Shown: piece by piece, positions 10,068 to 59,625 of the stretch
How positions within the stretch are numbered: the stretch's first letter is position 1
How the letters are laid out: the number at the start of each line of letters is the position of its first letter
Translations under genes and position numbers: made by a program
Source of the DNA: an uncultured Selenomonadaceae bacterium
Lineage (GTDB): Bacteria; Bacillota; Negativicutes; Selenomonadales; Selenomonadaceae
Assembly (NCBI GenBank): GCA_905234235.1
Contig: CAJOHN010000005.1
Location: 62,001-126,000, forward strand
Reading direction: 5' to 3'
Length of the DNA stretch: 64,000 nt
Notes under the pieces: model-generated
Told to the model about the DNA's origin: nothing
The model's database searches: none
Seen by the model: only the letters and a program-made list of their open reading frames with translations

Positions 10068-11521
10068 TGTCTTATTGCCTCCTGCGCAATCTCTCTGTCG
10101 TCGAAATGAATAGTTTTATCTTTAAGTATCTGATACGTCTCGTGCCCTTTGCCGAGAATTAAAACCACGTCGCCCGCCTTTGCAAGCTCAATCGCTTTAA
10201 AAATAGCCGCTCGCCTGTCGATTATGCGCTCGTGAATTTTATCGCCAATGCCGCGTTCAATGTCGTCTAAAATTTTTTCGGGGTCTTCGGTACGCGGGTT
10301 ATCCGAAGTCGCAATAACAATGTCGCTGAATTGCGCGGCAAGCTTGCCCATAATCGGACGCTTTGAATGATCTCTATCGCCGCCGCAACCAAACACCGTT
10401 ATAATTTTGCCCTTAGCAATCTGCGCGGCAGTCTCTAAAACATTTTTTACACCGTCGGGCGTGTGCGCGTAGTCTACGATAACTTCAAACGGAACGTCGG
10501 CAAAAATCCTCTCGAAACGACCGGGCACGCTTTTAAAATTTTCCAATGCACTCTTGATAACTTCGGGCGAAATATTTTCTGTAAACGCCGCGCCAATCGC
10601 CGCAAGCACGTTATAAACGTTGAACAGCCCCGTGATGTGCAAACTTAATTCGAGTTCGTCGCCAATCTTAAAGTTCATGCCGCCGGATTTTATTTCAAGC
10701 TCATTTCCGCGCAGGTTGGCAAGATTTTCGACGCCGTAAGTAATTTTCTTACACAGACAATGCTTAAGAATTTCTGCGCTTGCCGCGTCGTCGACGTTGA
10801 TTATCGCAGTTTTATTTTGCTTACGACCGCGCCGCGAAACCATATCGAAAAGCTTACACTTCGCCCGCAAATAATTTTCCATCGTCCCGTGAAAATCCAG
10901 ATGATCTTGCGTCAAGTTCGTAAAAATCGCCGTATCGAATTCGACGCCCGCAACTCGATTCTCCGCCAACGCGTGGCTCGAAACTTCCATGACGACGACT
11001 TGAATATTTTTATCGCGCATGTCGGCTAAAATGTGTTGCAAATCGATAACGTTAGGCGTGGTGTTGCGAACGGGAAAACTTTCGTCGCCGATAAGAATTT
11101 GAATCGTACCGATAAGCCCGACCGTCAAGCCCGCGCTCTTAAAAATTTCCCGCAATAAATATGTCGTGGTAGTCTTGCCGTTAGTGCCCGTGATTCCGAT
11201 AACTCGCATCGCCCGCGCAGGATAATCGTAAAAATACGGAACGATAACCGCCAGTGCGTTCAACATATCGGGGACAATCAGCGCGGAAGTATTTTCGGAC
11301 GGAATAAAATTTTGTCGCGCCGTGAGGATTGCAACTGCGCCCTTAGCCGTCGCTTGCGGTATGAAATTATGCCCGTCAACGTGTGCGCCTTCCATACACA
11401 CGAATAAATTATTTGCCGTAACCTTGCGCGAATCGTGCTCAATGCCGCTAATCAAAACGTCGTCGCCGATAATACGGGCGTCGGGGATGAGCAATGCCAG
11501 TTCGCTGAGTTTTTTAATCAA
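10055..11521 (-). CDS. murE: MurE, UDP-MurNAc-dipeptide:diamino acid ligase
   Basis: Adds the third stem residue. About 488 residues. Motifs: GIEHDSRKVTANNLFVCMEG, ITGTNGKTTTTYLLREI, TNLTQDHLDFHGTMENYLRAK, FGCGGDRDHSKRPIMG, and the specificity loop TSDNPRTEDPEKILDDI. The DNPR form is the one associated with meso-diaminopimelate, but specificity is inferred, not shown. The ORF-track start at 11575 is too early: AGGAGGGAGGCG lies just upstream of a TTG at 11519-11521, which gives MIKKLSELALLIPD, the usual MurE N-terminus. First gene of the cell-wall operon. Confidence 0.95.
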   Translation of the reverse strand: MIKKLSELALLIPDARIIGDDVLISGIEHDSRKVTANNLFVCMEGAHVDGHNFIPQATAKGAVAILTARQNFIPSENTSALIVPDMLNALAVIVPYFYDYPARAMRVIGITGTNGKTTTTYLLREIFKSAGLTVGLIGTIQILIGDESFPVRNTTPNVIDLQHILADMRDKNIQVVVMEVSSHALAENRVAGVEFDTAIFTNLTQDHLDFHGTMENYLRAKCKLFDMVSRRGRKQNKTAIINVDDAASAEILKHCLCKKITYGVENLANLRGNELEIKSGGMNFKIGDELELSLHITGLFNVYNVLAAIGAAFTENISPEVIKSALENFKSVPGRFERIFADVPFEVIVDYAHTPDGVKNVLETAAQIAKGKIITVFGCGGDRDHSKRPIMGKLAAQFSDIVIATSDNPRTEDPEKILDDIERGIGDKIHERIIDRRAAIFKAIELAKAGDVVLILGKGHETYQILKDKTIHFDDREIAQEAIRQWIS

Positions 11522-26919: not shown

Positions 26920-28644
26920 TCAAGCGTCGAAGTTGATTTCGGGCAAATTTTCTACGATGTCCAGAGTTTTTAGGCTGACGGTTATCGAACTCAAGATTAA
27001 ATCTAAAATGTAGCGCGGCTTGTCGTGTTCGGTCGCCCAATCGTTCGGATTATTGATTATTCCGCTCGCCGTGTCCGTTTTTATCTGGTAGCGGTCGATT
27101 ATCCACTCCAACGGACTGCGACCATTTACTACATACTCAAAACTGCGCGGCGGTATGTTTTTTATCGTGATGAAGTCGTTGTAAATCAAGGTCGTGCGGT
27201 CGTCGCGGGCAAATCGCAATTTTTTTACCCGAAAATCGCCGCCACCGATAATTTCAACCTTCGCGGGCGGCTGTGTCTCGTAGTTCAGATGAATTTCCGC
27301 TAAATCTCTCCCTGCGCGGCTAAATTCCCAAAATCGCTCGCTCAATATGATTCGCGGCAAACTTTTCTTCAACTCCGCACTAAATTTCTCCCGATAACTT
27401 CGCAAATGTAAAAATCCATACACGTAATAGAAAATATCTTCCTTGCTCACGTCGCCAAAGCGTTTTCGCGCCTCTGTCAAGATATAATCGCTGATTCCGT
27501 CCCGCCGCTCCAAATTTTCGCCAAATAAACTCCCCTGACCACTTCGCTCGTAATAATAAAGCGGATAACATTGCGTGTTAAAGTTCATTTGATAATCTGT
27601 GATTCGATTCGTGATTAAAACCGAAAAATCTTTTGAATTGCCAATGCCAGAGACGCAGATTAAGAGATTCTCCGCTCCATTCGGAAAAAGTTCGCGCATT
27701 TTGCCAAGTCGTTCGTTCAATAGCTCGTCGAGATAAAAATTTTGCTTGCAGAACGGGCGATTAAAGCTTTCAACGATTTTCGCGGCGTCAAATTCAATTT
27801 CAAGCCCGCGATTTTTATTTTTAACAGATGAACTGTTCCAAACAAACTTTGTAGGGTCAATTTCCATCGTCGAATGCGTGTTGTAGTAATCAATCGTCGT
27901 TCGGATATTTTTTTCGAGTTCGGAGCGCGAAAAATTGTAACACCATGCGTCTCGATTGGTTTTTAGCCCGTTTGAACGTGTCATGAACCAAATCCATATA
28001 TATGGATTTGAACTTTCGTGCAACGAAATGAACTTTTCAAACTCATTTCCGCGCTGATTTATCCAATCACACCGCTCATTCGGATAAATTTCCTCAAATT
28101 CGCCGCCAAACACTCTTGCACGCGAAATTATCGCCAATTTCTCCTCCCGACTCAAATATTCGCCGATGTCGCGGTAAAATATCTTCGCAGAGCCTTCGTG
28201 AGCACTTTTTACCAGGATTGTTATCGCTATCGGCGCTCTCGAACCACTTCCAAACACTTTTCCACCCTCTCGACGCGACATTTCGCCTTGCGTACGCTGA
28301 TTTCCGCGCAAATTGAACACATATATCTCGCTGAACTCGTTTTCAAAGCATTTTCGCAAGCCATCCATCGCCGCGCCGTCTATCCAGCCCGCATTCGTCA
28401 CAAATCCGATTATTCCCTCGTCAATTCGGTCGCTCGCCCAGCGAAATGCCTTGATATAGCTGTCGTACAGCGAATTTTTATTCGTCGCGGCTGTTTTGGC
28501 GGCATAAGTCGCTGAAATTCGATTTTCAAGGCGCGGATAGTAATTTTTAATCTTAAAACACTTTTGAGGACGATTTTTCAGCTCAAAATACAAAATCCTA
28601 TATATGGGATTTCGTAAAATGAACAACAAAAAACCCTCCGACAA
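26920..28644 (-). pseudogene. Methylase/target-recognition half of a helicase-type restriction enzyme
   Basis: 574 codons. Recognisable from RLENRISATYAAKTAATNKNSLYDSYIKAFRW and IGFVTNAGWIDGAAMDGLRK through the AIAITILV-like stretch APIAITILVKSA, to the recognition domain (FYYVYGFLHLRSYREKFSAEL, LEWIIDRYQIKTDTASGIINNPNDW). This is the C-terminal part of the large single-chain nuclease-helicase-methylase proteins (type ISP-like). The catalytic NPPY motif that should precede RLENRI is missing, and the ORF opens inside a terminator-like hairpin. The N-terminal half is at 28.85-29.78 kb in the same orientation, also broken. Confidence 0.75.
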
Positions 28645-28664
28645 GTCGCCGAAGGGAATTTTTA
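28633..28664. terminator. Terminator-like hairpin at the break in the restriction gene
   Basis: CCCTCCGAC-AA-GTCGCCGAAGGG followed by AATTTTTATT; a relative of the hairpin at 12.5 kb, and it covers the apparent start of the downstream half. Confidence 0.5.
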
Positions 28665-28684
28665 TTGCCGTGATTTATTTTCAC

Positions 28685-28804
28685 TCAAGCTATTATGTCA
28701 ATTCCGTTAGAAAATTGCGCGTGTGCTTTGCGATAGGTATCATTATCCTTTTGACGAAGTTCATTTTCGATTTGGGCAAGTTGTTTTTGTAGATTGTACT
28801 TCAA
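28685..28804 (-). CDS. Small coiled-coil ORF inside the broken restriction locus
   Basis: About 39 codons from a TTG, KYNLQKQLAQIENELRQKDN then DTYRKAHAQFSNGIDIIA. A charged helix ending just before the terminator-like hairpin, so it may be the tail of an inserted or deleted gene. No ribosome site is obvious. Confidence 0.25.
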   Translation of the reverse strand: MKYNLQKQLAQIENELRQKDNDTYRKAHAQFSNGIDIIA

Positions 28805-28848
28805 TAGTATACTGACTTTTTTTGAATCGTCAAGTAAAATACATGCGT

Positions 28849-29784
28849 TTATTGTTCTAATTCGATTTTAGCGGCAGAAACTTTATCGAGCGATTGATAA
28901 ATCGAGAAAATTACAGTCATAGCGTCGTTAAAAGTTTCCATGCGGCTTAAAATTTCGTTTGGATTGGTCGTGGCGGGCAATGGCAGGTTTACGGAGTGGA
29001 TTTAGTCGTCATTTTTCTTAGAAACGGTTTCATCGGAACAAACGCAAATATAATTGAACGGATTTTCGGAATAGGTAGCCCATTCGTGAAGAATTTGACC
29101 TAAAAGCGAGATTGACGGCACCAAAAATAAAATTTTACCGTTCGGAAAGAGTTTTTCGGCGATTTTTAAGCTGGTATAAGTTTTACCGGTGCCGCAACTC
29201 ATGATTAACTTGCCGCGCTCATGATTTTGGAAATAAATTTGCGTGGCGTTAATGGCATTGAGTTGATGCGGAAGAATTTCGCGAAATTTTTTGATTGCGC
29301 CTTCGCCAAAAGTGCCCGCGTCGAGTTTTTCCCAATCGACGGCGGCATTTTGCAAATCAGTCAGAGAAATTCTTACAACGGGCGGATTTTGATTCTGGAT
29401 AGCGCGTTCAGCCTCAGCGTTCCAATTATTTGTCGTAGAAATCTAGAGTCGCACGGAAAATTTTTGTCCGTTGAAAGTCTTTGAACTGGTTGCAAGGAAG
29501 GTATCGACCGCAGATTTAGTGATTGGCGTCGTTTCGGCGTAAAATTTGCATTGCACCGCCAAAAATTCTCCGTCAACAGTCTTGCAGACAATATCAATGC
29601 CCAAATCAACGGTGCCGAGTTCATTTTTAAACGGAAAATCATTCCACAGCCACACATCGGAAAATTTCCCTTGATATTCGGGATAAGTGAGCAGAAAATT
29701 TTTCATCAGCCGTTCAAAAGCTTTTCCGCAGTCAACTTTGCTATCGAACGCACGATATTTGGTTAAAAGTTCGTCAATCGTCAT
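28849..29784 (-). pseudogene. Nuclease-helicase N-terminal half of a restriction enzyme, with two stop codons
   Basis: From ATG 29784 (GGAGGTG upstream): MTIDELLTKYRAFDSK, then a Mrr-type PD-(D/E)XK fold, GIDIVCKTVDGEFLAVQCKFY, which has the D...QxK core. The same frame is cut by TAG at 29443, continues through helicase motif I (KLIMSCGTGKTYTSLKIAEKL) and motif Ia (ILFLVPSISLLGQILHEW), is cut by TAA at 29002, continues VIFSIYQSLDKVSAAKIELE, and ends at 28849 where motif II should begin. Two nonsense codons plus loss of the helicase middle make it nonfunctional. Together with 26.9-28.6 kb it was one defence gene just outside the tRNA-anchored element. Confidence 0.75.
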
Positions 29785-29886
29785 TGGCAACACCTCCGAT
29801 AAAAATTTTATGCGATTATATCACATTCAAACGGAAAAAGCCCCGCAAGTTAGCGAGACTTTGTTAATTTTCGATATTGGTTGGTA

Positions 29887-29926
29887 CGCTCGGCGCGACT
29901 CGAACGCGCGACCCACGGCTTAGAAG
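29887..29926 (-). tRNA. 3' fragment of tRNA-Arg(UCU), probable left attachment site
   Basis: Minus strand CTTCTAAGCCGTGGGTCGCG then CGTTCGAGTCGCGCC: anticodon loop with UCU, variable arm and T arm, but no 5' half (upstream bases do not pair). A terminator (AAAAAGCCCC...GAGACTTTGTT) follows it. The same fragment recurs at 59.6 kb in the same orientation, as expected for attachment-site copies. Confidence 0.7.
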
Positions 29927-29978: not shown

Positions 29979-31251
29979 TCAAGGTTCCGTCGAGTTCGTC
30001 CGTTGCAATTTTTCCGCCGAATTCGGCGATTTTTTCTGCTGTAGACCCACAAATGGACCCACTAAAATTTCTGATACAGACGAATTGACGTTGAGAAATT
30101 TTACGCCACGACTACAATCTCCGTGTATGTTAGACAATACGCGAATCCCTGCAGAGGAGATGTACTCAAGCTTTGAACAATCAATTTCCACTCCATCAAT
30201 GACATTAACGTTCTTTTCCGATTCCCACGCCGTCAAAATCTTCGGCGCGGATATGCTGTCAACTCTGCCGCGCAAAGTCAGCCGTAAAATTCCGTTTTCG
30301 AGAGCGTAACTCATCTCGAAATGTTGTTGCTTTTGAACTGCTTGAGGCTTTCGCGTGTCGTCAAGAATGATGACCCAATAATTGCAACGGCTCATGGCTT
30401 CTTTGAAGCGCAGAATTTGTTCCGACGTGAGCTGATTATAAACGCTGAGTTCGGACATATACTCCGCCAAATTGATTCGTTCGGCTTTCAGTCCGTGTTT
30501 TGCCAAAAGAGCATTCGCCGTTTTTCGGGAGCCGATTACGTCCGCCTCGTCCAAGATGAAGGAATTGAATAATTCGACAATGCCCGACTGTCTACTTGCG
30601 GCGTTCCCAGTTGTCGCCAGCTTAGCAAGCGAACTTTCGCCGAACACTGAACAAAAAGTTTCGATAAACTGCAACTTAACCTCCGGATCAGGCGTTATCC
30701 AGCAACCGCCGTGAATTTCCAACAAATTGCGGACGTTGTCGATGACGGTGTCGACTTCGTTTTCAGTGAAGTACATCATCATGCCTTCCGTCGTAATGCA
30801 CAGCGGCTCGTCAATATCACGCAATGCCGCTTCAAGTGATTCGTAATTTGTGGCATCAACTTCGCAAAAGGTCATACGCTCCGAATGATTAGCAAGGGAG
30901 CGAATAATCGGCGCAATTTCCTGCACAACGATTGGCAAATCCAGTCCGACAAAACGCAGACCTTTTCGAGTTAAATGAAGAGCTTTCGGCGTGTAACCGC
31001 AAGGCAAATCCACGCATGTACGATAACCGCAATCCTCAATCAATCGGCACATGGTGCGATATTTTGCCTCAACCACAATGGCATTTCCGAGAATCGTATC
31101 GGAATCCGCCATGCTTCGGAGCGGCTGATTGTCTTCCAGTTCCAAGCAACGGACGATTGAATCAGCGTCGGAAATTCCCGATTGCTGTTTTTGCCGTCAA
31201 GAATACAGGATTGGTTCGCGCCTGTGCGCTGTAATCAACTTCATGATTCAT
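29979..31251 (-). pseudogene. LCMT-like methyltransferase fused to a STAS domain, frameshifted
   Basis: Starts ATG 31251 inside the upstream stop (ATGA): MNHEVDYSAQARTNPVFLTA, then one extra A in AAAAA near 31187 shifts the frame; the continuation KQQSGISDADSIVRCLELED runs into the 388-codon track ORF. The methyltransferase part has VDLPCGYTPKALHL, VGLDLPIVVQEI and CITTEGMMMYFTENEV, like leucine carboxyl methyltransferase/PPM1 relatives. From about residue 275 there is a STAS anti-sigma-antagonist-like domain (LRGRVDSISAPKILTAWE, DCSKLEYISSAGIRVLSNI). The last ~30 residues, after SEILVGPFVG, come from element-end DNA. A signalling role is possible; the substrate is unknown. Confidence 0.65.
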
Positions 31252-31487
31252 GATGTCAAACTCCCGCTTGTCATTCCGTATTCGAGATTTTCGGGCGTGG
31301 TGTAGATCGTCTGAATGTCTCCCGTGCGTATTTGCATTTCCAAAAGTTCGCTTGAAGATTTGCCCGTAAACTTGACAACTGCAGAGCGAATGTTTGCACC
31401 GTCCTCCCAATCAATGTCGGAAAGACCTATCCATTGGTCGGGATACTTTTCTGCTATCTCGTTCCATGTCAATCTTTGCTTATCCAT
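31248..31487 (-). CDS. Conserved hypothetical small protein
   Basis: 79 residues from ATG 31487 (GGAGGTGAG upstream). MDKQRLTWNEIAEKYPDQWI, then GLSDIDWEDGANIRSAVVKF, TGKSSSELLEMQIRTGD. Acidic, probably a compact alpha/beta fold. Its TGA overlaps the ATG of the LCMT-STAS gene, so the two are translationally coupled and probably work together. No family name recognised. Confidence 0.65.
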   Translation of the reverse strand: MDKQRLTWNEIAEKYPDQWIGLSDIDWEDGANIRSAVVKFTGKSSSELLEMQIRTGDIQTIYTTPENLEYGMTSGSLTS

Positions 31488-31498
31488 GACGCTCACCT

Positions 31499-31860
31499 CC
31501 GAAAAATCTGTAAGCGGATTTTATCATAAAAATTTCTTTGTGACCACTGATTCAACAAGAAATTAAAAGCGATGCACAAATTCGTCCGTCGCGCTTGAAA
31601 TTTTGCATTGATCCACGCCTAAAAAATCGGCTGATTTCGTCCACTGTCTGTCAAAAACCGTTCCATTGCTTATATTCGGCGGACGAAACGGACGAAACGG
31701 ACGAACGGACGAGCCGCCAATTCAAAAGTGAATCACTTTACTTGCGACGCCTGTCAAAAAGTGATTCACTTTTCGACAAAAAATAAAAGCGGACGAGTAA
31801 TTAGCTCGTCAACCTTAAACGTAAGTTGTCATCGAAAAATACCCTGCAGAGCGTTGAAGA
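31499..31860. repeat. Imperfect direct repeat, copy A (integrase 3' end plus arm region)
   Basis: Matches 38555-38932 over most of its length (CGATGCACAAATT, TTGCTTATATTCGGCGGACGAAACGG, GTGAATCACTTTACTTG, CCCTGCAGAGCGT). It contains three GGACGAAAC-type direct repeats and two near-palindromes AAAGTGA(A/T)TCACTTT about 20 bp apart, the look of integrase arm and Xis sites. It ends inside the restriction gene, giving that protein the same ALQGIFR tail as the integrase. Confidence 0.8.
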
Positions 31861-33763
31861 TACAAATATTCCTCCATTCACGTGGAGCAAGTTTGGATTG
31901 AAAAGCCGCCTCAAATATTTCGTAGAGTTTCTCGTAGCGAAGATGATTTTTGATGATATTCTTTAAGTCGTCAATTTGCAGTGGAATAATCTTCATGCCC
32001 TCAATAAAATTGTTGTCGTCAGCTGTATCGTAGTATCGTTGATTTTTACGTCCTCTAAAATCAGAGACAACATTGATGTTCAAATCGTTTGTAGCAAAGA
32101 CACAGTAAGAATTCAAATTGTGAGTGCGGAGTATGTGATTGCCGAGATGTCTGGAAACAGGCTCCATTTCCATGCGCCGCTGATTGGTTCGGTCAGCCAG
32201 TGTCGCTTCAAGCAAAAGCGAATGAGCAGGATATACGGCAGATTTCGGAAAATCTGCGTCAAGCGAAAGTTTCATGTAGTCAAGAATCTTTCCTTGCCGA
32301 TTGCTGATTTTATACCAGAGAATACCGAGGACGTATTCAAAGATCGTCGGAATGTCGGCGTTGTCAGTTACCAGCTTTTGAATTTCGTCATCAGATCTTT
32401 CGGCGATAAGGTTTAAGAGGCTCAAGATTTTCTCATCGGTGAACTTGGAATCAATCAAGTGGTTAAGTCTGATGTAGCGTTGACGGTCTAAAATTTCTCC
32501 GGTGTCTTTCAGCGACTGTAACTTCAGTGCGAATTCTCGGTTAATGCCGTCAAGAATAACGTTTTCATTTGGACGAAGGAACGCCGCAATGTCTTCCAAT
32601 CGACAATTCTCTTGCAATAACGGAGAGTCATCAAAGGCAATATCCAATAACCTGTCGCAAATCGGAGCGAAGTAATGACGCGGAACAATGTCGAGCACGA
32701 CTTTTCCATCGGCAAACAGAATAACGTCTGCGGTCTTCATGTATCTGCGGTTGAGGTCGAAATAATCTTCGAGGCTCCGCTTGGCTTTAATTACGTGCAT
32801 TAGGGCGAAAAACGTCCGACGAAATTTTTTCTCTGTGTCAGCGTCATCAAAGCTGTTGATTTGCAGACATTCCAACGGAGCTTTTTTTATTTTGGCAAGG
32901 CTGTTATCGCCGAAAAGATACCGTTGCCAAAGCTTGCCGGTGTTCGTGAGATGTTTAAGTGCAAGAACTATCTCGTTGACGGCAATTTCATTGCGTTCCA
33001 AATAAAATTTGTGGAGCGCGTCGTAAAGCGGAAAATAAGCTTTGTCGTACTGCCGACTTTTTCTGTTTATGCCGACGTTGGCGATAACATCTGCCGTTAC
33101 AGTTTCGGCGCGAAGGAAATATTTCAGCGCGGTCTTGTAATTGTCCTTTGCCATAAGACGCGCCAAAATTATTTCGTCAATGGTGGTCAAATTATTTCGC
33201 AAAGCTTTTATCTTGTCGACGGCGTCTAATGTGCTTTGCCTGTTAATGCTCAACGGCAACAAGTAAGTGAACTCTTCATACGATAGCCCGCCAAGTTTCG
33301 TGATGAGATAAACCGTGACGATGAAGGGGCGCACTTGATCCATGTCGACTTTGACGGACGTTTTCAAGAGTTGCTTGAGGTAGATAAAACTGTCGGCGGG
33401 AATGCCCAACGAATTATCGACGGAAAAATCATTTCGTTTGCTAATGTTCAAAAGTTGTTTGCCGACTTCGGTAAGCCTACGATTGTCGTCAATTAATCCG
33501 AGCGACACCAAGCCGGATGTCTTTTCGCGAGCATCTTTGGGCTTATTGTTGGCGTTTCCGGAAATGAATCCGACTTCGTGCAGAAAATTATAGTAAGCTG
33601 TCTGAATTTTGTCGTTGCCGTTCCAGTCTTTGCCGACGTTTTCTTTCAGCGACCAAAAATCGCGTAGCAAAGCAAGTTGCTGTTCAATCTTTTTGTTGAA
33701 ATTTTTTGTGCGGAAGCTGGTAGTGCCCAAGCTCCAATAAAAACTTTTGTATTGCAGATTCAA
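31829..33763 (-). CDS. AlwI-family type II restriction endonuclease
   Basis: 644 residues. YKSFYWSLGTTSFRTKNFNK near the N-terminus, then KDAREKTSGLVSLGLIDDNR and RRLTEVGKQLL, characteristic of the AlwI family (GGATC, cutting outside the site). The C-terminal half holds HSLLLEATLADRTNQRRMEM, where the acidic/basic residues of the nuclease core lie, and HILRTHNLNSYCVFATNDLN. The TTG start overlaps the stop of the methyltransferase upstream (ACTTGAATC). Paired with two adenine methyltransferases, as an asymmetric site needs. The last seven residues derive from the repeated integrase-end DNA, so the natural C-terminus may be slightly altered. Confidence 0.82.
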   Translation of the reverse strand: MNLQYKSFYWSLGTTSFRTKNFNKKIEQQLALLRDFWSLKENVGKDWNGNDKIQTAYYNFLHEVGFISGNANNKPKDAREKTSGLVSLGLIDDNRRLTEVGKQLLNISKRNDFSVDNSLGIPADSFIYLKQLLKTSVKVDMDQVRPFIVTVYLITKLGGLSYEEFTYLLPLSINRQSTLDAVDKIKALRNNLTTIDEIILARLMAKDNYKTALKYFLRAETVTADVIANVGINRKSRQYDKAYFPLYDALHKFYLERNEIAVNEIVLALKHLTNTGKLWQRYLFGDNSLAKIKKAPLECLQINSFDDADTEKKFRRTFFALMHVIKAKRSLEDYFDLNRRYMKTADVILFADGKVVLDIVPRHYFAPICDRLLDIAFDDSPLLQENCRLEDIAAFLRPNENVILDGINREFALKLQSLKDTGEILDRQRYIRLNHLIDSKFTDEKILSLLNLIAERSDDEIQKLVTDNADIPTIFEYVLGILWYKISNRQGKILDYMKLSLDADFPKSAVYPAHSLLLEATLADRTNQRRMEMEPVSRHLGNHILRTHNLNSYCVFATNDLNINVVSDFRGRKNQRYYDTADDNNFIEGMKIIPLQIDDLKNIIKNHLRYEKLYEIFEAAFQSKLAPREWRNICIFNALQGIFR

Positions 33764-34698
33764 GTTGCGTCACCGCCCTTGCTCACATCGTAGTTGACGA
33801 CGAGGACTTCATCACTCGCCGAAATTTTGTCCGCCTTGTGATAGTTGGAGTTGGCGTAGCTGTGTTTCAAGTGAATGACCTTGTAGCTGTTCACGTTCCT
33901 GTCGAGCCAAGCAGATAAAATCTGATTGCGGTTGCCTTTACTGCTGAGAACGTTGGATAGAGCGAATCTTATTCCGGCGACGTGGATTGAATCCAAAAAC
34001 TTCAGCAGGTCGTGTTCGTCGCAGTCGTTCCAGCCGCCATTTTCATTGTAAGCCGCGCATGTTATCAGATACGGCGGGTCGGCGTAGACAAAATCATTTT
34101 GAGTAAGCGTCGCGGTATCAAATTGGCGGAAATCGCTACAGATGAACTTACAGCTTGTCGAGTGAATGCGGTCGATAAACGCACTGAGCTTTGAATGCAT
34201 ACGAGAATTGAAGTCGCGCTTGCCGACGGGCAGATTAAATTCTCCGGCAGAGTTGAAACGAATCTGATTGTTGAAGGCGTGAACGATTATGACGTACATC
34301 ATCACGTAATAGCGATAGTCAATGACGGCGCAGTTATTGAAATCCTCGCGCAGACGATTAAAAGCGTCGCGATTGTAAGCACCGAGACCGACACTGCTGT
34401 CACAACCATAGAACTTGTAACCATCGCGACTGACAAGCGAAAGTCTGTATTCCGCAATGATGTCGTAAATCCACTCGAAAACAACTTTCTTCTCAAGGTG
34501 TTGAAAAGTTTGGTATAGGTATATCAAATGCTCGTCGCGGTCGATGAAAATATTTTCCTTGCAGTCGACATTTATGCCGACATTGCAACCGCCGCAAAAA
34601 AAATCAAAGAAACGGTCAACGTTCTTTGGGAAAAGCGGAAGTATCTGCGGGAGCAACTTGAATTTGCCGCCCGTGTAGTTCAGCGGAGATTGAATCAT
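33760..34698 (-). CDS. DNA adenine methyltransferase, Dam/D12 class (first of pair)
   Basis: 312 residues from ATG 34698 (GGAGG 8 nt upstream; ATGA overlap with the upstream gene). SPLNYTGGKFKLLPQILPLFP and DFFCGGCNVGINV are the SAM-binding motif I region; DFVYADPPYLITCAAYNENG contains the catalytic DPPY. The order NYTGGK...FCGG...DPPY is alpha-class (Dam-like). It would methylate adenine on one strand of the site cut by the AlwI-like enzyme. Confidence 0.9.
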   Translation of the reverse strand: MIQSPLNYTGGKFKLLPQILPLFPKNVDRFFDFFCGGCNVGINVDCKENIFIDRDEHLIYLYQTFQHLEKKVVFEWIYDIIAEYRLSLVSRDGYKFYGCDSSVGLGAYNRDAFNRLREDFNNCAVIDYRYYVMMYVIIVHAFNNQIRFNSAGEFNLPVGKRDFNSRMHSKLSAFIDRIHSTSCKFICSDFRQFDTATLTQNDFVYADPPYLITCAAYNENGGWNDCDEHDLLKFLDSIHVAGIRFALSNVLSSKGNRNQILSAWLDRNVNSYKVIHLKHSYANSNYHKADKISASDEVLVVNYDVSKGGDAT

Positions 34699-35834
34699 AG
34701 GCAATTCCTCCGACGAACTTTACAAAGGAAAAGTCGTTCTTCATTTCCGCGAATGTCGGACTTGCCCGTTGTGAAGGGTTTATATTTCTTCGCGAAGACT
34801 TCAACATCTCCTTTGGCATTTAGAATACGGAAAATATCTTCGTCCGCGATACGAGCATTGGAACGAGCGTCGCCTTTGTTCGCCATGTTGTTGTAGGAAA
34901 ACAGGATATACTTGGTGTCGCAGTGTTGAATCAAATCTTCAAAGGCGTCGGTTGCCTTGATCGTGCAGTAACTGCTTTTCAGCCCATTACGGTTCATTTT
35001 GCGGGCGACCCCGTGCACGGGCGGCTTTTGCCAGCGGGCGACGTTTTCCAACAGGTGATATGTGTCGGAGTATTGGCGAGAGTTATACGGCGGGTCAATA
35101 TAAATCAAATCCGCTCTAATGTGTCTGACGAGTTCGTTGGCGTCTTCGTTGAAGCATTGATTCTGCTTGTTATTATCTGCCGGAACATTTAGCACAGGCA
35201 AAACTAATCGGCGTTCAAAATTTGCCCCGTGCCTCCAAGCGTCATAATGACCGCAAGTATTCGCGATTCTGTCCATGGCGTAAATCAGCGACGCGACGAG
35301 AATAGCACGCTCCCGTTCGTTGATAATGCCGAGCCGATATTTTTCTTCGACATCTTCACGAACAAAGCCGATCTTAGTGCAGTCTTGCTTGCTGAAGTAT
35401 GTGTCGGCAAAATTCTCGGTCATATAATTTGTCGGTAGATTTTCAGCCTGATTGTACTCAGCGATTAAATTTTGTAGCAGATGAAGACTCACCTTCTGGT
35501 TGCCGAACCAAGCGATGTTGCAAAGATAATTGCTGTAGAGCAAGTCGTTCGTTATAATTTTCTTATCCGTAAACGCCGACGCGACCGCGCCTGTCCCTGA
35601 AAAAATGTCTGCAACCGTTTCGATTGCAGAGCAATTTTCATCCACAACATTTCGGAGGAATTTGAGGAGCTTAAACTTATTTCCCAGATACCGTCGATTC
35701 CGAATGTCAGCTGTTTCATTATGGCGCAAACGCGAAATTATGTTGGCGGAGATATTCGCTTGCCGCATAAGAGCCGTACTCGTCATGTTTTGACTTTGCA
35801 TCAAATGGAACGACTTGTCGTAAGCGATTGCCAA
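34695..35834 (-). CDS. HTH-fused adenine methyltransferase (second of pair)
   Basis: About 379 residues from TTG 35834 (GGAGGG upstream). Residues 1 to about 40, IAYDKSFHLMQSQNMTSTAL then MRQANISANIISRLRHNE, are the first four helices of a Cro/XRE HTH like those of restriction controller proteins, but the fifth helix is missing and the chain passes straight to RNRRYLGNKFKLLKFLRN, the usual N-terminus of a methyltransferase. FSGTGAVASAF is motif I and LIYIDPPYNSRQYSDTYHL the catalytic motif. A deletion probably joined a separate controller gene to the methylase. It opens the methylase-methylase-endonuclease operon. Confidence 0.85.
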   Translation of the reverse strand: MAIAYDKSFHLMQSQNMTSTALMRQANISANIISRLRHNETADIRNRRYLGNKFKLLKFLRNVVDENCSAIETVADIFSGTGAVASAFTDKKIITNDLLYSNYLCNIAWFGNQKVSLHLLQNLIAEYNQAENLPTNYMTENFADTYFSKQDCTKIGFVREDVEEKYRLGIINERERAILVASLIYAMDRIANTCGHYDAWRHGANFERRLVLPVLNVPADNNKQNQCFNEDANELVRHIRADLIYIDPPYNSRQYSDTYHLLENVARWQKPPVHGVARKMNRNGLKSSYCTIKATDAFEDLIQHCDTKYILFSYNNMANKGDARSNARIADEDIFRILNAKGDVEVFAKKYKPFTTGKSDIRGNEERLFLCKVRRRNCL

Positions 35835-35868
35835 CCTGTTCACCCTCCATTGTCGTAGTGCCGTCATA

Positions 35869-36804
35869 TTATTGCGACCATCTTTTCAAACACTTTACGA
35901 GGTAATCGATGAGTATACCGCAGTATGGTCGGTACTCACCATTTTCGTAATGCTCAATTTTTATTTTGTCACGGATTCTGTTCATACAGTAAGCGCACAG
36001 ATAACCTTGCTCCTCCAACAGCGATTGACGCAAAGTGTCTTTAACCTCTGTTGGCATATCGTCGAAATGAGCTTGAGGATTTTGCAGTTTAAATTCTTGA
36101 AATTTCTTTGGCGAATTACTCTTTTGAATGTGAATCATTGCAGACCTCAAATTCTTTCCAAATCGAGAGTGACCTGTGCTCCGACGACTTCCGAATCCGT
36201 ATCGCCCAACTGTGTTCGCAATTTTGAAAGGTTTCGCGCTGAGGCAATTAACATAGCCATTCATTTGCGACAAGAAAGAAATTTCATTTGGTTTAGGATC
36301 ACCCGATTTATCCCATTGCCTGCGCATTCCATAGTACACAATTATTGGACAAACTACACTCTTACCATTGCTTATTCGATTCTGCAGTTCGCGCACATAC
36401 ATTCCAACTTTATCGACACCATTATATTTGAATGAAGCGTGGGAAAATAATTCATGAGTCCAAGATAACGATTGCCCCGTAGAAAATTCTGCGGTCACGC
36501 TTACAGCTAAAGGATAGCAGGATTCTTTGTTTATCGTGCTACCGGCGATGACGGTTTTTATTTTCGCGTCACTCTCTTGAAGTTTAATGTTGTTTATATA
36601 AGCAAAACCTTTACGTGCATCGCGTTGAGATAAAGAAACAAAACCATCTATGATTATCCGCAGAGCGTCCAGAATGGAAGATTTACCGGAACCGTTGATA
36701 CCAATCAAAACCGTGTAGGGTATCGAAAAATTTATAGTCAACTCTTCAAAGCAACGGAAATTTTTCAATTTCAATTCTTTAATTATCAACTCGTCCACCT
36801 TCAA
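35869..36804 (-). CDS. Collapsed Septu-like PtuA-PtuB gene
   Basis: 311 codons. Residues 1 to about 195 are the N-terminal lobe of an SMC/RloA-type ATPase: LKLKNFRCFEELTINF and Walker A VLIGINGSGKSSILDAL; no signature or Walker B follows. Then a stretch unlike ATPase (VGRYGFGSRRSTGHSRFG) leads to MIHIQKSNSPKKFQEFKLQN and MPTEVKDTLRQSLLEEQGYL, CAYCMNRI and KIEHYEN: the N-terminal half of the TIGR02646/PtuB HNH nuclease, with its first CxxC and the EH of the motif. The C-terminal nuclease half is missing. In Septu the two are separate proteins; here both lost their ends and share one frame. Probably inactive. Confidence 0.65.
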   Translation of the reverse strand: MKVDELIIKELKLKNFRCFEELTINFSIPYTVLIGINGSGKSSILDALRIIIDGFVSLSQRDARKGFAYINNIKLQESDAKIKTVIAGSTINKESCYPLAVSVTAEFSTGQSLSWTHELFSHASFKYNGVDKVGMYVRELQNRISNGKSVVCPIIVYYGMRRQWDKSGDPKPNEISFLSQMNGYVNCLSAKPFKIANTVGRYGFGSRRSTGHSRFGKNLRSAMIHIQKSNSPKKFQEFKLQNPQAHFDDMPTEVKDTLRQSLLEEQGYLCAYCMNRIRDKIKIEHYENGEYRPYCGILIDYLVKCLKRWSQ

Positions 36805-36982
36805 GCTATTTTTTCATACAAGACGACTCGAACAAAACAATTTTTCTTTCGAGTGATTCGTGATGTCGATTTTTCAACTCGTCTTTAAATTCTTCAGGTC
36901 GTCGACAATAGCGTATCAAATTCTTTTTAGAAATAATCCTGCTATAGCTGACAGATTGAGCGAGATTTTTTTTTTAATCTTT

Positions 36983-37342
36983 TCAAGTACTATGCTTCAG
37001 ATTAAATTTCTCGCACAGATTTTTGCATTCCAATACATACGACAATTCGTCTTCAAAATTTTTGTTCTGAATCAGTAGGAAAACATTTCCAGAGCAAATA
37101 CTCCTAAGCATTTTTACATTATGGAATAAAGTATCGAAATTAGTTGTTTCTATGCAATCGGTATCCAAAACACAATAGACTTTATCCCTGAAGCTCTTCA
37201 AAAGATCGTTTGAGCGTAAAAGTTTTGTTTGCATTAAGTTGAATTTCCTAAAACGACCAGGCTGGATAAAATCATTTTGATTCAAAAAACCAAAGAAACG
37301 TTCCTCAATTTCTCCTTCACCAATATATAAAACCTTAGTCAT
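36983..37342 (-). CDS. RloB/AbiL-type partner protein, truncated
   Basis: 119 residues: TKVLYIGEGEIEERFFGFLN, VYCVLDTDCIETTNFDTLF, FLLIQNKNFEDELSYVLEC. The GEGxxE and DTD positions match the Toprim-like acidic residues of RloB/AbiLii proteins, usually 180-220 residues. After KFNLKHST the frame stops; a helical continuation (EKIKKKISLNLSAIAG) is readable in another frame next to an A10 run, so the C-terminus is probably lost by mutation. It overlaps the ATPase gene upstream by 8 bp. Nothing else is seen in 36.81-36.98 kb. Confidence 0.6.
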   Translation of the reverse strand: MTKVLYIGEGEIEERFFGFLNQNDFIQPGRFRKFNLMQTKLLRSNDLLKSFRDKVYCVLDTDCIETTNFDTLFHNVKMLRSICSGNVFLLIQNKNFEDELSYVLECKNLCEKFNLKHST

Positions 37343-38513
37343 TGTTTCTTTCCTCTAAAAACTTGTCCAAAACACTGTAGTCTGGCAAAACTCCAAAATA
37401 ATCGTTTTCGTAATGCATCCTGAGATTTCTTATGTTCTTGCGGAGAACTTCAGAAGGGTATATTACTTCATTAAAACCTTCTTCGCTACGCCTAAAAAAC
37501 AGAAATGAAGTTATCGGTGCATTCAATTCTAAAAGCTCCGCGTTGTGTGTCGTAAAAAAAATTTGACTGTCAGAGGATTTTTTTGAAAATGCTTGGTATA
37601 TGAGATACGCTTCAAGCTCTGAATGCATGTGAGAAAGACGTTCATCAATATAAAATAAATGAGTAGTCTTCTCATTCAGTTCATTAAAAAGGCACAAAAA
37701 ATCTATTGCCTCAAAGGTTCCGTGAGAAAGCCTATCTCCACATCGACGAAGATCACCATCGGGGACAGTTAAAATTTCGTTATTCTTGAAAGTAATCTGA
37801 TATGATTTTGTCTTGACTGATTCACCGTCTTCTCCTTCGACGATTAAACGTTTCACACTTATAACGGAATTGTCAATTTTTGGAAGCACATTGTTTAAAA
37901 ACTCAATATTCGTTTCGCCAAGATAGGTTGAAGAGTTTAGCGGGAGCTCGGAGAAGCTGAACCAGAAACCGATTTTTTTACGTAAGTCTCTTAATTCTTT
38001 TGATGAAGCAAAGGCATAAGATTTACAGCCAATATCGAACAAATTTTTCACGGAGTCATACTTTTCAATTGTATCGCCCTCTGCCAATTTTTTTCTCAAG
38101 GTTTGTATGTTGTAAGACTTATAAATTTTTTGTCTAAAAATTTCCTCTGTATACAAACTATCATTGCGGAAGCACGCTTTTAATAAATAAGCCGTATCCT
38201 CAATGACAAACTCTACCTCGAAACTTGAGTTCTTAGACTTATCATATCGCGCTGAAGGAATGCTAAATGAGCCGTCGCCTAAATCTTTGCCGTAAACGAA
38301 ATTAAGAATCATGCAAAGCAATTTACCGAAAGTTGTTTTGCCAGAAACATTTGCCCCCATAACTATGAGATTCTTTCTGACCTTAATTTTTGAGCCAGCG
38401 AACAGTCTGTCATTCTCCGAGATATAGTGATTACTTTTGCGTTCGTACGTAAAGTCCACTTCAAAGTTTTTGAACATGTAAAAATTGTCGCAAGCTACCC
38501 TCAAAATAATCAT
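37335..38513 (-). CDS. AAA15/21-family ATPase, AbiL/RloA-like
   Basis: About 392 residues from ATG 38513. An OLD/SMC-like ATPase of phage defence: Walker A VMGANVSGKTTFGKLL (about 55), signature DRLSHGTFEAIDFL, Walker B HLFYIDERLSHMHSELE and H loop IFFTTHNAELLEL. All catalytic motifs are present. With the Toprim-like RloB partner just downstream (8-bp overlap) this matches abortive-infection ATPase-nuclease pairs (AbiL, RloAB). A+T-rich compared with the mur region, a sign of transfer. Confidence 0.8.
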   Translation of the reverse strand: MIILRVACDNFYMFKNFEVDFTYERKSNHYISENDRLFAGSKIKVRKNLIVMGANVSGKTTFGKLLCMILNFVYGKDLGDGSFSIPSARYDKSKNSSFEVEFVIEDTAYLLKACFRNDSLYTEEIFRQKIYKSYNIQTLRKKLAEGDTIEKYDSVKNLFDIGCKSYAFASSKELRDLRKKIGFWFSFSELPLNSSTYLGETNIEFLNNVLPKIDNSVISVKRLIVEGEDGESVKTKSYQITFKNNEILTVPDGDLRRCGDRLSHGTFEAIDFLCLFNELNEKTTHLFYIDERLSHMHSELEAYLIYQAFSKKSSDSQIFFTTHNAELLELNAPITSFLFFRRSEEGFNEVIYPSEVLRKNIRNLRMHYENDYFGVLPDYSVLDKFLEERNND

Positions 38514-38554
38514 CGAGTTCACATTCCTTCAAAACCTTGGTTGCGGTATTTTTC

Positions 38555-38932
38555 TCCGAAAAATCTACGCAGAGATTCTACCACAAAAATTTTGCTCTGA
38601 CTACTGCCTCAACGAGAGCTCAAACGCGATGCACAAATTTGTCCGTTGCGCTTGCAAACTTGCAGTGATCCGCACCTTAAAAATTGGCTGATTTAGTCCA
38701 CTGTCTGTCCGTCCGTGGAAAAAATCCCTGGCTGTCAACAACCTTTTCCTTGCTTATATTCGGCGGACGAAACGGACAGTCGGACAACTCTACAATCTGA
38801 TAGTGAATCACTTTACTTGCAACGCTTGTCAAAAAGTGATTCACGTTTCGGCAAAAAATAAAAGCGGACGAGCAATTAACTCGTCCACCTTAAGCGTAAT
38901 CTGTCATCGAAAAATGCCCTGCAGAGCGTCGA
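38555..38932. repeat. Imperfect direct repeat, copy B (integrase 3' end plus arm region)
   Basis: Partner of 31499-31860. It runs from just upstream of the AbiL-like gene, through GTGAATCACTTTACTTG...AAAAGTGATTCACG, into the last codons of the integrase (CCCTGCAGAGCGT). Copies A and B differ at roughly a fifth of positions, so they are related but not a fresh duplication. The 38.52-38.90 kb gap contains nothing else. Confidence 0.8.
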
Positions 38933-40079
38933 CTGCTTGCCGTTGCATGTCGGGCAAAACGTGGCTGTAAGTGTCCATCGTGACTTTGATTGAGCTGTGA
39001 CCTAAACGTTCCTGAACGATTTTGGGATTGACGCCTTGCCGCAGAAGTAACGTCGCGTGAGTGTGGCGCAAGCCGTGAAAAGTAAAATCCGAGCTGATGT
39101 CGCATTTCTTTAACAGCGGCTTGAAGTATCGTCTGCTGAAATTCGTCGGGCTTATCGGTTCGCCGAACGGGCTGGTGAAAACGAGATTATGCCCCGCAAA
39201 CAAATCGCCCAGCTCTTCGGAATAGTTTTCCTGCCACTTTTTATAGACGCGAAGATTTTTAATGTCTTCCGGCATGAGCAAAATGCGTCTGATACTGTTT
39301 TTGGTCTTGGGAGCTTGAAAAACCGCGCCTTTGCCTATGACGTGAGCCAACGAGCGGCGAATAAACAGGCAGGATTTTTCAAAGTCAACGTCTTCCCATT
39401 TGAGCCCGAACACTTCGCCTTGACGCATTCCGGTGTGAACAGTCAGAGAAATTATCTGCGGCATAACGACGCTCATGAACTGATGATCAATTTCTTTTGC
39501 CGCGTTGATAAGCCGAGCAATTTCATCTTTCGACAGGACGGCGATTTCTTTCTTGCTCAATTTCGGAGCTTTCGTAAGGCGAACGACATTCGACGATACA
39601 AGCCCTGACTTAACTGCGTCGTCAATGCACATGCTGAGATAACGCCGCGTTCCTCTGACGGTCGAACTTGATAAGCCTGTGCCGTCCGTTCGTCCCGTTT
39701 CCAACAGCCGATTGAAATTTTTCTGCAAATCTGCCGCAGTCAATTCGTTAAGCAGAACATTTTCAAAGACTGGCAGAATGTACGCCTTCAATGTACCGGA
39801 ATATTTTTCGTAAGTTCGCGGTCTGACATTCGGCTTTGCATAATTCTCCAACCAATTTCTAATCCAGTTTCCAACGGTTAATTTTTCGTCATCGTTTGCC
39901 GTTCGATTAAGGCTGTCGATAAACTCTTTGCCCTTCTGCATTGCCTCGCGCTTAGTCTTTGCGGCAAATTTTTTGCGGCCGCGATTTCCGTAAGCGTCGG
40001 TGTAACGGAGCTGGTAAATCCAAATTCCGCGTTTAACGTCGTGAAAGAAGCCGCCCTCGCCTGAATTTCTCTTGCCCAT
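38904..40079 (-). CDS. int: Tyrosine integrase, Tn916/phage type
   Basis: 391 residues from ATG 40079 (GGAGG upstream). The N-terminal arm-binding domain (GEGGFFHDVKRGIWIYQLRY) and SAM-like core-binding domain (LTVGNWIRNWLENYAKPNVRPRTYEKYSGTL is the usual pattern) precede the catalytic domain: Arg in HTGMRQGEVFGLKWED, HGLRHTHATLLLRQG, GHSSIKVTMDTYSHVLP with the nucleophile Tyr. All catalytic residues are present. It integrates and excises the element; excisionase lies directly upstream and tRNA fragments bound the element. Confidence 0.95.
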   Translation of the reverse strand: MGKRNSGEGGFFHDVKRGIWIYQLRYTDAYGNRGRKKFAAKTKREAMQKGKEFIDSLNRTANDDEKLTVGNWIRNWLENYAKPNVRPRTYEKYSGTLKAYILPVFENVLLNELTAADLQKNFNRLLETGRTDGTGLSSSTVRGTRRYLSMCIDDAVKSGLVSSNVVRLTKAPKLSKKEIAVLSKDEIARLINAAKEIDHQFMSVVMPQIISLTVHTGMRQGEVFGLKWEDVDFEKSCLFIRRSLAHVIGKGAVFQAPKTKNSIRRILLMPEDIKNLRVYKKWQENYSEELGDLFAGHNLVFTSPFGEPISPTNFSRRYFKPLLKKCDISSDFTFHGLRHTHATLLLRQGVNPKIVQERLGHSSIKVTMDTYSHVLPDMQRQAVDALQGIFR

Positions 40080-40160
40080 AATTGCCTCCAATTAAAACGA
40101 ACGGGCAGAAGCGCAGTTGCTTCCGCCCAAAACGGAACGATTGATTTTTGTTGCAAATAG

Positions 40161-40313
40161 TTATTTGTCGTCAACGAAGCTCGCGGGAATTAAGATGCGC
40201 CCCATGACGCGGCGATGGGGAATTTTTCCCTGCTGAACACCGGCGTAAATCAGAGACTTACTGACGCCGAGAATTGCCGCAACCTCTTTGACGGAGTAGA
40301 ATTTTTTCGTCAT
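40161..40313 (-). CDS. xis: Excisionase-like HTH protein
   Basis: 50 residues, too short for the track: MTKKFYSVKEVAAILGVSKS LIYAGVQQGKIPHRR, a MerR/HTH_17-type winged helix. TAAGGAGGG sits 8 nt before the ATG. Position just before the integrase and its size fit a directionality factor. Confidence 0.8.
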   Translation of the reverse strand: MTKKFYSVKEVAAILGVSKSLIYAGVQQGKIPHRRVMGRILIPASFVDDK

Positions 40314-40315
40314 GC

Positions 40316-42591
40316 TCAACCCTCCTTAGGCGCGATTAAAAACTGCGGACAGACGAAAGGCAAATTGCCGACAGCGGGCAGATGTTGTTGCCACCATTGC
40401 CGATAGTGAATCGGCACGGCGGTATTGAGGGGCACGTTCATTATGTATTCGATTGGATCCGTGACGTAAGCCGACATTGCGAGCATGGGAAGAACGAGTC
40501 TTTCGTTAAGCCAAAGCTTCGCGGCGTCCGCCGAAGAAAACTCCTTCAGCCCACTTGGCTTGAAATGTTCCACGAACTCGACGGCACCTTGTACAGTATC
40601 GTAAATGCCGATGTAATCGGGACTGACAGTCGCGAAGAACCTTTGCGCGGGAATTTGCGCGACGAAATTAGGAGCATGGTAAGGCGACTGAAGTACGTCC
40701 TCAAATTTGGGCAAGAACGGTTGATGATAAGGATTTTTTGTCCACTCGTCCCGAACAAATTGAGTGCAGGTGTCGAAATAAGCCTGCTCAACGTTCGGTG
40801 CCTCGACAACGTGAATGCCGCTGTTGTTGTTGATGAGCCACGTTAAAAGCTCGGTGCTGTTCGCCTTGCCGCTGATAAAAACTCACGACGAATTTGTAAG
40901 CGTCGTCAAAGCGTAGCCAAGCGGTATTCGTAGTTTTTTCGCGGAAGCCGATAAAACCGGACGAATCAGCGACATATTCTGATTCTGTTGCCGCAAGTCC
41001 GTTGTATTTTGTGGTGCCGATACTCTGTTTAAGCGCGTGCAAGAACCGAACCTCCGGCTTGCTTTCCTTCGTGCTCGTCAAGTTTTGCCGCATAATATTT
41101 TCAACGGCATTCAGCGCGTGCTCCCGATACGCTATCATTTCCGCGTCACTCATTCCGCAGTATATTCCGAATGCCGCAATCAAATTGATCTCGACAGCCA
41201 TCGTTGCAATAGCATCGATAAAGCGCGGAACAGAAAATTTTTGTTGGTAAAGCTCGCGATACTCTGCAAAACGTGATGCACATTCCCCGACGACACTTGA
41301 GCCGTATTCTGTGAGAAATTGGATTAACAACGCGAAGTGGATCAAAAGTCCCTTCGACGATTGGAAGGACAATTAGCCTGTACAAACTGGATTCGCTCAA
41401 GCCCAGCTCGTCTTCGCCTGTCATTACGATCACGCATTGAACGTCATCGGCACGTCCTGTAGATAAGTCGTTGACGTTCATCTTGCCAGAAAACATTCCG
41501 TCGCCGACAGCACGTATCGCAGTCTCGGCATTATCGCGGGCAAGGTTATTGCTTGCGCCGACCGTATTCGAGAAGTCATCGAGCAAGACAACAGTATCGC
41601 GCATCTTCGTAACGAATTCCTGCGTGTAAGCTTTGGTTGACGTGAGGCGCATGCTTGCTTTTCGGCGGTTCTTGGCGAAGATATTCGCGATGAGCGACAC
41701 GACCGTCGTTTTAAACAAGTTAGTCTTGCCTTTGACGAAAATGACGCTCCGAAAATCGACGCCAAACTTCCTCAGCCAGAACAAAGACAACGCGATATGA
41801 GCGACGAGCCAGAGAATTTCGATGACGCCATTTTGATGCCCGATTTCTCTAAACCTCGAACCTTCGGTGAAAATTTCTCGCCTGTTCAAATAACCGACGC
41901 TCGGCAAGATGATTTCCATGCCCGTATAAAATCTGTCCTCGCCGATGTAAAATTTAGGTGGCACTCCCTCGAATTCGACCCAGCCGCTAAGGTCGGAATA
42001 ATACTCAACCTCCACCGTTGATGCGTCGCGTTGGTAAATTCGTGTCAGATATTCATCCTTGGCATCCAAATCGCCGAGCGACGTGTACGCAGACGGCAAT
42101 TCTCGACGAATGACCTCGAAAATTTTTTTGAAATCGTGCGCGGGAATTTTGAGCGTTTTTGCAACGGTGCCTTGTTCGTCATTGAAAGAAACTTTGACGT
42201 GGAAAACTTCCTTAATCTTTTTGCCTGACCAGCGTCGCTCAATCTTGTTGATGGTGAGCGTCGTGTTGGCAATTTTTCGCCCCTGCTTGTCGCCGTCTCT
42301 GAGCTGATACAGACCGCCTTCGCCGACGATAAAATTTTCGCCAGTGAGTGATATGGTTGACGTTGCCGTAGCGGGAATATTTACGATCGCCTCCCACACG
42401 CCGAAGTTCTGATTGAATCGCGCAACCATGGGCTGAATATAGCCGAAACATTGCGTGCGATGTTCCTCCGGAAGGATATGCGGCGTTTTCGGATTCCACG
42501 GCGGCAAAACTTCCGGAAGAGGAATTTTGACGGGTTCACCTTCTTGTTTTTCAAGTATGCCGAATTCCGCTGTGCCGAATTTAATCGCCAC
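40316..42591 (-). pseudogene. DUF927-like primase/helicase ATPase, frameshifted twice
   Basis: Three track ORFs are one gene of about 755 codons. Frame 1 (from GTG 42591, AAAGGGGG upstream) has AQFNQN-type start, GWVEFEGVPPKFYIGEDRFY and a P-loop-like VIFVKGKTNLFKTTVVSLIA, then MRDTVVLLDDFS as Walker B and CVIVMTGEDELGLSESSLYRL as sensor/Arg-finger region. One extra G near 41350 shifts to LLIHFALLIQFLTEYGSS; one extra T near 40886 shifts to ISGKANSTELLTWLINNNSG. The C-terminal part has FFATVSPDYIGIYDTVQGAV, resembling the RNase H1/viroplasmin hybrid-binding fold. Likely the element's replication helicase. Both lesions are homopolymer changes. Confidence 0.6.
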
Positions 42592-59393: not shown

Positions 59394-59578
59394 TCAAACA
59401 TAAATGAGAATCGTCAGCTCGTCACCGCCTGCAACCTTTGAAATCGCCGCTTGTTATCTTCGTTTCAAATATCGTCCGTTTGTCCGTGCCGTCCGTCGAT
59501 TTTATCAGTGGACCCACAAATGGACCAACAAAACGGAAAAAGCCCCAACCGAAGTCGAGACTTTGTTGATTTCATATG

Positions 59579-59625
59579 GCGCGCCCGGCGTGACTCGAAC
59601 ACGCGACCCACGGCTTAGAAGGACT
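59579..59625 (-). tRNA. 3' fragment of tRNA-Arg(UCU), probable right attachment site
   Basis: Minus strand GCAGTCCTTCTAAGCCGTGG GTCGCGTGTTCGAGTCACGCC: anticodon arm with UCU, T arm and 3' acceptor, with no D arm or 5' acceptor (A+T-rich DNA upstream). Same orientation as the 29.9-kb fragment. Followed on the minus strand by AAAGTCTCGACTTCGGTTGG GGCTTTTTCC, a tRNA-type terminator also seen at the left copy. Further out (59480-59535) are GTCCG repeats and GGACCCACAAATGGACC, shared with 30.05 kb. Confidence 0.7.

Follow-up and report, generated by a model that had tools for sequence, protein, structure and literature searches.

Tandem integration followed by deletion as the probable origin of a defence block behind the integrase gene of a tRNA-Arg element in an uncultured Selenomonadaceae bacterium

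The 64 000-nucleotide stretch of DNA analysed here (the window), from the MAG of a rumen bacterium, contains an element that extends from about 29.88 to 59.62 kb and is integrated in tRNA-Arg(UCU). This element probably arose from two related ones, formerly in tandem at the tRNA gene, which a deletion fused into a single composite. The event is an ordinary and known process, accretion plus deletion, which is seen here in unusual detail: tandem accretion and the CIMEs of ICEs and IMEs have been described (Pavlovic 2004; Bellanger 2011; as reviewed in PMC5704250), and accretion in tandem followed by decay is documented for IMEs (PMC5704250).

A sequence of 379 nt (copy A), located 3' of the integrase gene int, recurs in direct orientation as a sequence of 361 nt (copy B) 3' of the AlwI gene (Table 1). 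The first-pass annotation, made from the letters of the window, had placed a sequence of 360-380 bp at both edges of an AlwI/Septu/AbiL block, and the alignment bears this out: the two copies show 75% identity with gaps over about 390 columns (E ~1e-80), and their ungapped blocks are 81-90% identical. This divergence is at the level seen between elements and is unlike that of a fresh duplication. The whole genome holds these two copies and no others, so the repeat was rejected as a dispersed MITE; it was also rejected as a viral feature, as scans of IMG/VR with the integrase and the palindromes gave no match.

Both copies start with the last codons of int. Read in the direction of int, the order within each is the last eight int codons, a terminator hairpin (13 bp in copy A, 6 bp in copy B), paired palindromes, a CGTCC/GGACGAAAC array, a GGACGGACAGACA block that is shorter in B than in A, a predicted extended -10 promoter, and the RBS of the gene that immediately follows. 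The repeats, near-palindromes and int codons reported earlier fall, by their coordinates, within both copies. Exact GGACGAAAC matches are located at 31681 and 31690 in copy B and at 38765 in copy A. The motif GTGANTCAC is present at 31728, 31761, 38803 and 38836, and at no other site across the 92-kb extended contig; the palindromes start 33 bp apart in both copies, and the full AAGTGANTCACTT palindrome is present twice in copy B and imperfect in copy A. With their fixed 33-bp spacing, and with none elsewhere in the element, the paired GTGANTCAC palindromes resemble the double operator of a regulator. In L009 (MAG RUI390), neither repeat copy has the palindrome pair (near 3990-4021 and 10860-10960), and there are small gaps in int, either through a true hairpin deletion or through an assembly artefact.

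The predicted promoter, T[AG]GTCA-N17-TGnTA[AG]AAT, is kept at the distal end of four cargo-facing repeats, namely the two window copies, that of the relative L047 and the second copy (L011B) of the relative L011 (RGIG6653). It is degenerate or lost in the first copy of the latter (L011A), whose cargo reads in the opposite way. Because the promoter is conserved where it faces cargo and lost where the cargo is reversed, the repeat is best read, from its sequence, as a putative int terminator plus promoter for the cargo operon between int and the attL arm. A TTGACA between the palindromes was rejected as the main promoter, as it is not conserved in L011A or L017.

Table 1. Coordinates of the features in the window (a slash marks a joint between fused sequences).
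Feature	Position	Strand	Basis or remark
Displaced tRNA-Arg(UCU) 3' fragment (attL)	29882..29926	-	
Methyltransferase-like/STAS protein, 3' end fused to attL arm (EIL/VGPFVG...)	29979..31145	-	
attL direct-repeat pair GACCCACAAATGGACCCAC (probable integrase arm sites)	30041..30062	+	
Small protein behind repeat B	31248..31496	-	no Pfam match
Repeat copy B: last codons of a putative second (lost) int fused to AlwI, terminator, palindromes, CGTCC repeats, predicted promoter of the 31248-31496 gene	31497..31857	-	
Predicted promoter TGGTCA-N17-TGATAAAAT before the 31248 gene	31518..31546	-	
Paired palindromes, copy B	31724..31773	.	
Copy B counterpart of the int terminator, now 3' of AlwI	31792..31810	-	
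AlwI-family restriction endonuclease with integrase tail (FN/ALQGIFR)	31829..33763	-	
D12-class adenine methyltransferase 2	33760..34704	-	
D12-class adenine methyltransferase 1	34695..35867	-	
PtuA-PtuB fusion via internal deletion (decayed Septu)	35869..36804	-	L047 has separate PtuA (472 aa) and PtuB (219 aa)
AbiLii-like ORF, apparently truncated	36983..37342	-	
AbiLi ATPase	37335..38522	-	PADLOC
Repeat copy A: last 8 int codons, terminator, paired palindromes, CGTCC repeats, predicted AbiL operon promoter	38554..38932	-	
Predicted promoter TAGTCA-N17-TGGTAGAAT before AbiL	38575..38603	-	conserved in copy B, L011B, L047
Paired palindromes, copy A	38800..38848	.	
Terminator-like hairpin after int (copy A)	38861..38891	-	
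Tyrosine integrase (Phage_integrase, SAM-like N domain)	38904..40091	-	Pfam, PF00589 3e-31
Xis-like HTH_17 protein	40161..40319	-	Pfam
attR flank: CGTCC block (also in repeats) and GGACCCAC repeat pair	59466..59526	+	
tRNA-Arg 3' copy common to window element and next (chimeric att)	59577..59621	-	

The assignment of the cargo to AlwI, Septu and AbiL was correct: the block encodes AbiLi, an AbiLii-like ORF, PtuA/PtuB, two adenine methylases and RE_AlwI. Of these, the R-M genes alone appear to be intact, Septu being internally deleted and AbiLii short, and therefore the 'defence module' is mainly an AlwI-type R-M system. In the decayed Septu, the N-terminal ATPase part of PtuA and the HNH part of PtuB are contained in one 311-aa frame. 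Elsewhere inside the element, a group II intron-type reverse transcriptase with an HNH domain is encoded at 46532-48316, and no relaxase was found with Pfam among the element ORFs scanned.

A trace of a fusion is seen at the end of the AlwI gene. It had been remarked that the restriction enzyme and the integrase end in the same residues, and this is indeed the case (...FNALQGIFR and ...DALQGIFR, each followed by the stop). The C-termini of the AlwI homologues are ...DICIVKKLN (L085), ...KFCIASKLA (L087) and ...EWRD (L086), while those of the window and L045 are ...NICIFN/ALQGIFR; because the homologues end otherwise, ALQGIFR is foreign to AlwI and is taken as a fused integrase tail. In L084 (genome G065), the C-terminus of AlwI is ...DICIAQ/ILVGPFVGPQQKK, the part after the joint being translated from the attL arm, and the breakpoint is right after TCAA both there and in the window. 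The STAS gene is likewise chimeric: in the window as in L141, L146 and L147, its own sequence stops at EIL and is joined to this same arm edge, vs. native STAS genes that run on past this point (L142, L145). The AlwI-attL end (L084) and the STAS-attL end (L141, L146, L147) thus occur separately in other genomes, and in L084 the AlwI and STAS modules stand in the opposite order to the window.

In the proposed course of events, an element a would have ended with int, repeat A, AbiL/Septu/AlwI R-M and attL, and an element b with int, repeat B, the small gene, STAS and attL. A deletion, for which a few common bases (TCAA) probably served as a guide, would then have extended from the last codons of AlwI, across the inter-element attL/attR and the backbone of b, into b's int as far as its last eight codons. 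This int tail, together with the terminator and promoter of b, would thereby have come to stand behind AlwI. We infer the deletion step, the promoter activity and the TCAA microhomology, the last being deduced from the homologues, not from the original AlwI end or from b's int. Tandem integration plus deletion explains why only eight int codons remain in copy B, why the promoter is present twice, why A and B diverge as much as separate elements do, and why both presumed parental ends exist. Against this reading, neither a complete element b (int-repeat-small gene-STAS-attL) nor a pre-deletion tandem is seen in any genome; element b was looked for with the STAS protein and also with repeat B joined to the small gene, and L084, L141, L146 and L147 are on contigs that break off within the STAS/small-gene region.

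Relatives carry different defence cargo at the same place beside int. In L011, whose backbone is syntenic with 38.6-57.8 kb of the window, the order is int-repeat-TcmP/DUF5131 (reversed)-repeat-AbiL-PtuA, and the TcmP/DUF5131 pair matches candidate defence families in PADLOC; in L047, int is deleted and the order is xis-repeat-PtuA-PtuB; in L111, an int fragment is joined into the repeat, followed by an AbiL stub and then another gene. The check that the first-pass annotation had proposed, for different cargo between the same repeats, was positive in so far as different cargo adjoins the same repeat, and in L011 lies between two copies of it. In L010, L015 and L004, an ATPase with RelB/PIN lies between int and attL with no repeat. 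The names TcmP, DUF5131, RelB and PIN in these relatives are what we take the genes to be on reading their sequences. No cargo-free related element carrying both repeats was found.

These arrangements could also be produced by homologous recombination, with the repeat as the homology arm by which circles or incoming elements carrying repeat and cargo insert that cargo together with a second copy. The same repeat beside different cargo in the window, L011, L047 and L111 is in favour of this. In addition, the similarity between L011A and L011B is clustered mid-repeat, whereas the flanking parts of L011A resemble those of the window copies (runs test p=0.0015, on few sites), which is only suggestive but indicates that repeat copies have probably recombined at least once. 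However, the outer joints are not at the repeat ends and differ between elements: L011B has no int tail, L111 begins inside the repeat, and in L084, where no repeat was detected, the same modules are rearranged. Moreover, copy B has only eight int codons, whereas after a crossover within the homology one would expect an int that is complete, hybrid or absent altogether. As an account of the window, homologous exchange appears rather unlikely, though with appreciable weight. For L011 it is a live rival, as this element does not fit the same single deletion: its cargo points the other way, and no int tail is present in its second repeat. Overall, the joints from element to element look like deletion joints plus occasional homologous recombination between copies, with no dedicated exchange reaction. 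Of the modular cargo-exchange site suggested earlier, the modularity stands, in that different cargo lies beside the same repeat; a dedicated exchange does not, since the joints differ between elements, and exchange is only possible. It is conceivable, if doubtful, that the repeat is a portable module of int terminator and cargo promoter doubling as a homology arm, by which elements might add, stack and swap defence operons behind int, each operon with its own promoter regulated through the palindromes.

Duplication in place of the region downstream of int, with later divergence and insertion of cargo between the copies, would give two direct copies near each other. However, copies A and B differ by about 10-19% in the aligned blocks, vs. 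neighbouring genes that are 96% identical between two genomes with the same composite, and the module behind copy B is a different one, found alone at attL in other genomes. Such a duplication is improbable.

The attachment sites bear on whether the integrase itself could have acted at the repeats. ARAGORN found no tRNA within the window; an intact tRNA-Arg(TCT) is located at L058:7628-7704, beside a different integrase (27% identical). Because tRNA 3' copies lie at 29.89 and 59.58 kb and the intact gene accompanies a second integrase, two elements are now in tandem (29.9-59.6 and 59.6-71.6 kb), meeting at one tRNA with a common chimeric att, an arrangement that favours the proposed tandem origin of the composite. 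The second of them (59622-71627, window plus L058) has its own tyrosine integrase, as well as genes reading like a cytosine DNA methylase and a ParB-like protein. Next to each of the tRNA copies, at about 30.04 and 59.51 kb, stands a direct-repeat pair GACCCACAAATGGACCCAC, and the relatives with a 66%-identical integrase (L010, L015, L004) have TGCCCCAC pairs at the same place and the same tRNA fragment at the end; by analogy, pairs of the GGACCCAC/TGCCCCAC type are probable integrase arm sites.

The 'arm sites' that the earlier annotation had seen in the repeats are therefore only partly such. Copies A and B do contain att-flank sequence, the CGTCC block being common to both and to the attR flank, but the tRNA core and the conserved GGACCCAC/TGCCCCAC pairs beside tRNA-Arg are absent from both. 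With a profile of the repeat core, the block was also picked up in L113-L118, where in every case it adjoins the tRNA at the same position (E 5e-6 to 4e-4 per genome); a family-wide search gave almost no match outside the genus. That the repeats are secondary attachment sites, where the integrase cuts and inserts cargo, would agree with the common CGTCC block and with palindromes adjoining int. However, the core is the tRNA-Arg 3' half flanked by GGACCCAC pairs, and the joints vary from element to element; because the core is absent from the repeats, integrase action there is very improbable. An integrase core at ACGCTCTG in the int tail, prompted by a 35-bp int fragment in L010 ending at the same bases, was dropped, as L010, L015 and L004 all end at the tRNA-Arg fragment.

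Some further observations concern the surroundings of the tRNA gene. The int 3' piece of L010 (4032-4066) is in flanking chromosomal DNA, about 270 bp outside attL. Selenomonas ruminantium and relatives (L013, L016, L020) have pieces of int that are truncated at the 5' end and keep the last 47-135 residues, at a distance of about 130-200 bp from the intact tRNA-Arg. The orientation of int with respect to the core is inverted between types: the Selenomonas int faces the tRNA 3' end and the Quinella-type int faces the displaced fragment. Directly left of attL in the window is a broken type ISP-like restriction gene (26920-29793), homologues of which stand beside tRNA-Arg in many relatives (L113, L115-L118, L141, L146).

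Finally, a chimeric contig is scarcely credible: the genome is a MAG of 46 contigs with 86% completeness, but the same gene order and AlwI-int-tail junction recur in an independent MAG (L009/L045), and copies A and B are too diverged for an assembly duplicate.

Tandem integration plus deletion, the reading preferred here, resembles the accretion of ICEs and IMEs, in which related elements occupy a single tRNA gene side by side, one of them decays through deletion, and the composite is transferred or inherited as a unit (PMC5704250). Unlike a CIME, which keeps attL and attR and has no integrase, the window element would have lost the att between its parts, and its flanking repeats are int-tail/promoter segments without core or GGACCCAC sites. 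As in the defence hotspots of P4 satellites and prophages, variable anti-phage systems lie beside int, flanked by conserved element sequence (PMC9122126); the P4 pocket, however, is between psu and int (PMC9122126), whereas the present one, in a tRNA-Arg element, is bounded by the int terminator on one side and by the attL arm on the other, and its flanking conserved DNA can be double. Integron gene cassettes are likewise cargo between recurring short sequences beside an integrase gene, but here no attC-like sites were recognised, the joints are non-uniform, the integrase is an ordinary tRNA-targeting tyrosine recombinase, and at least six genes form one block.

In the window, the way in which defence cargo is stacked behind an integrase can thus be followed at the nucleotide level, with the presumed parents, the reversed arrangement and the chimeric frames all visible. 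This suggests that tandem integration and deletion, and not a specialised cassette system, can make defence pockets grow, and that the predicted promoter conserved downstream of int may allow new cargo to be expressed at once.
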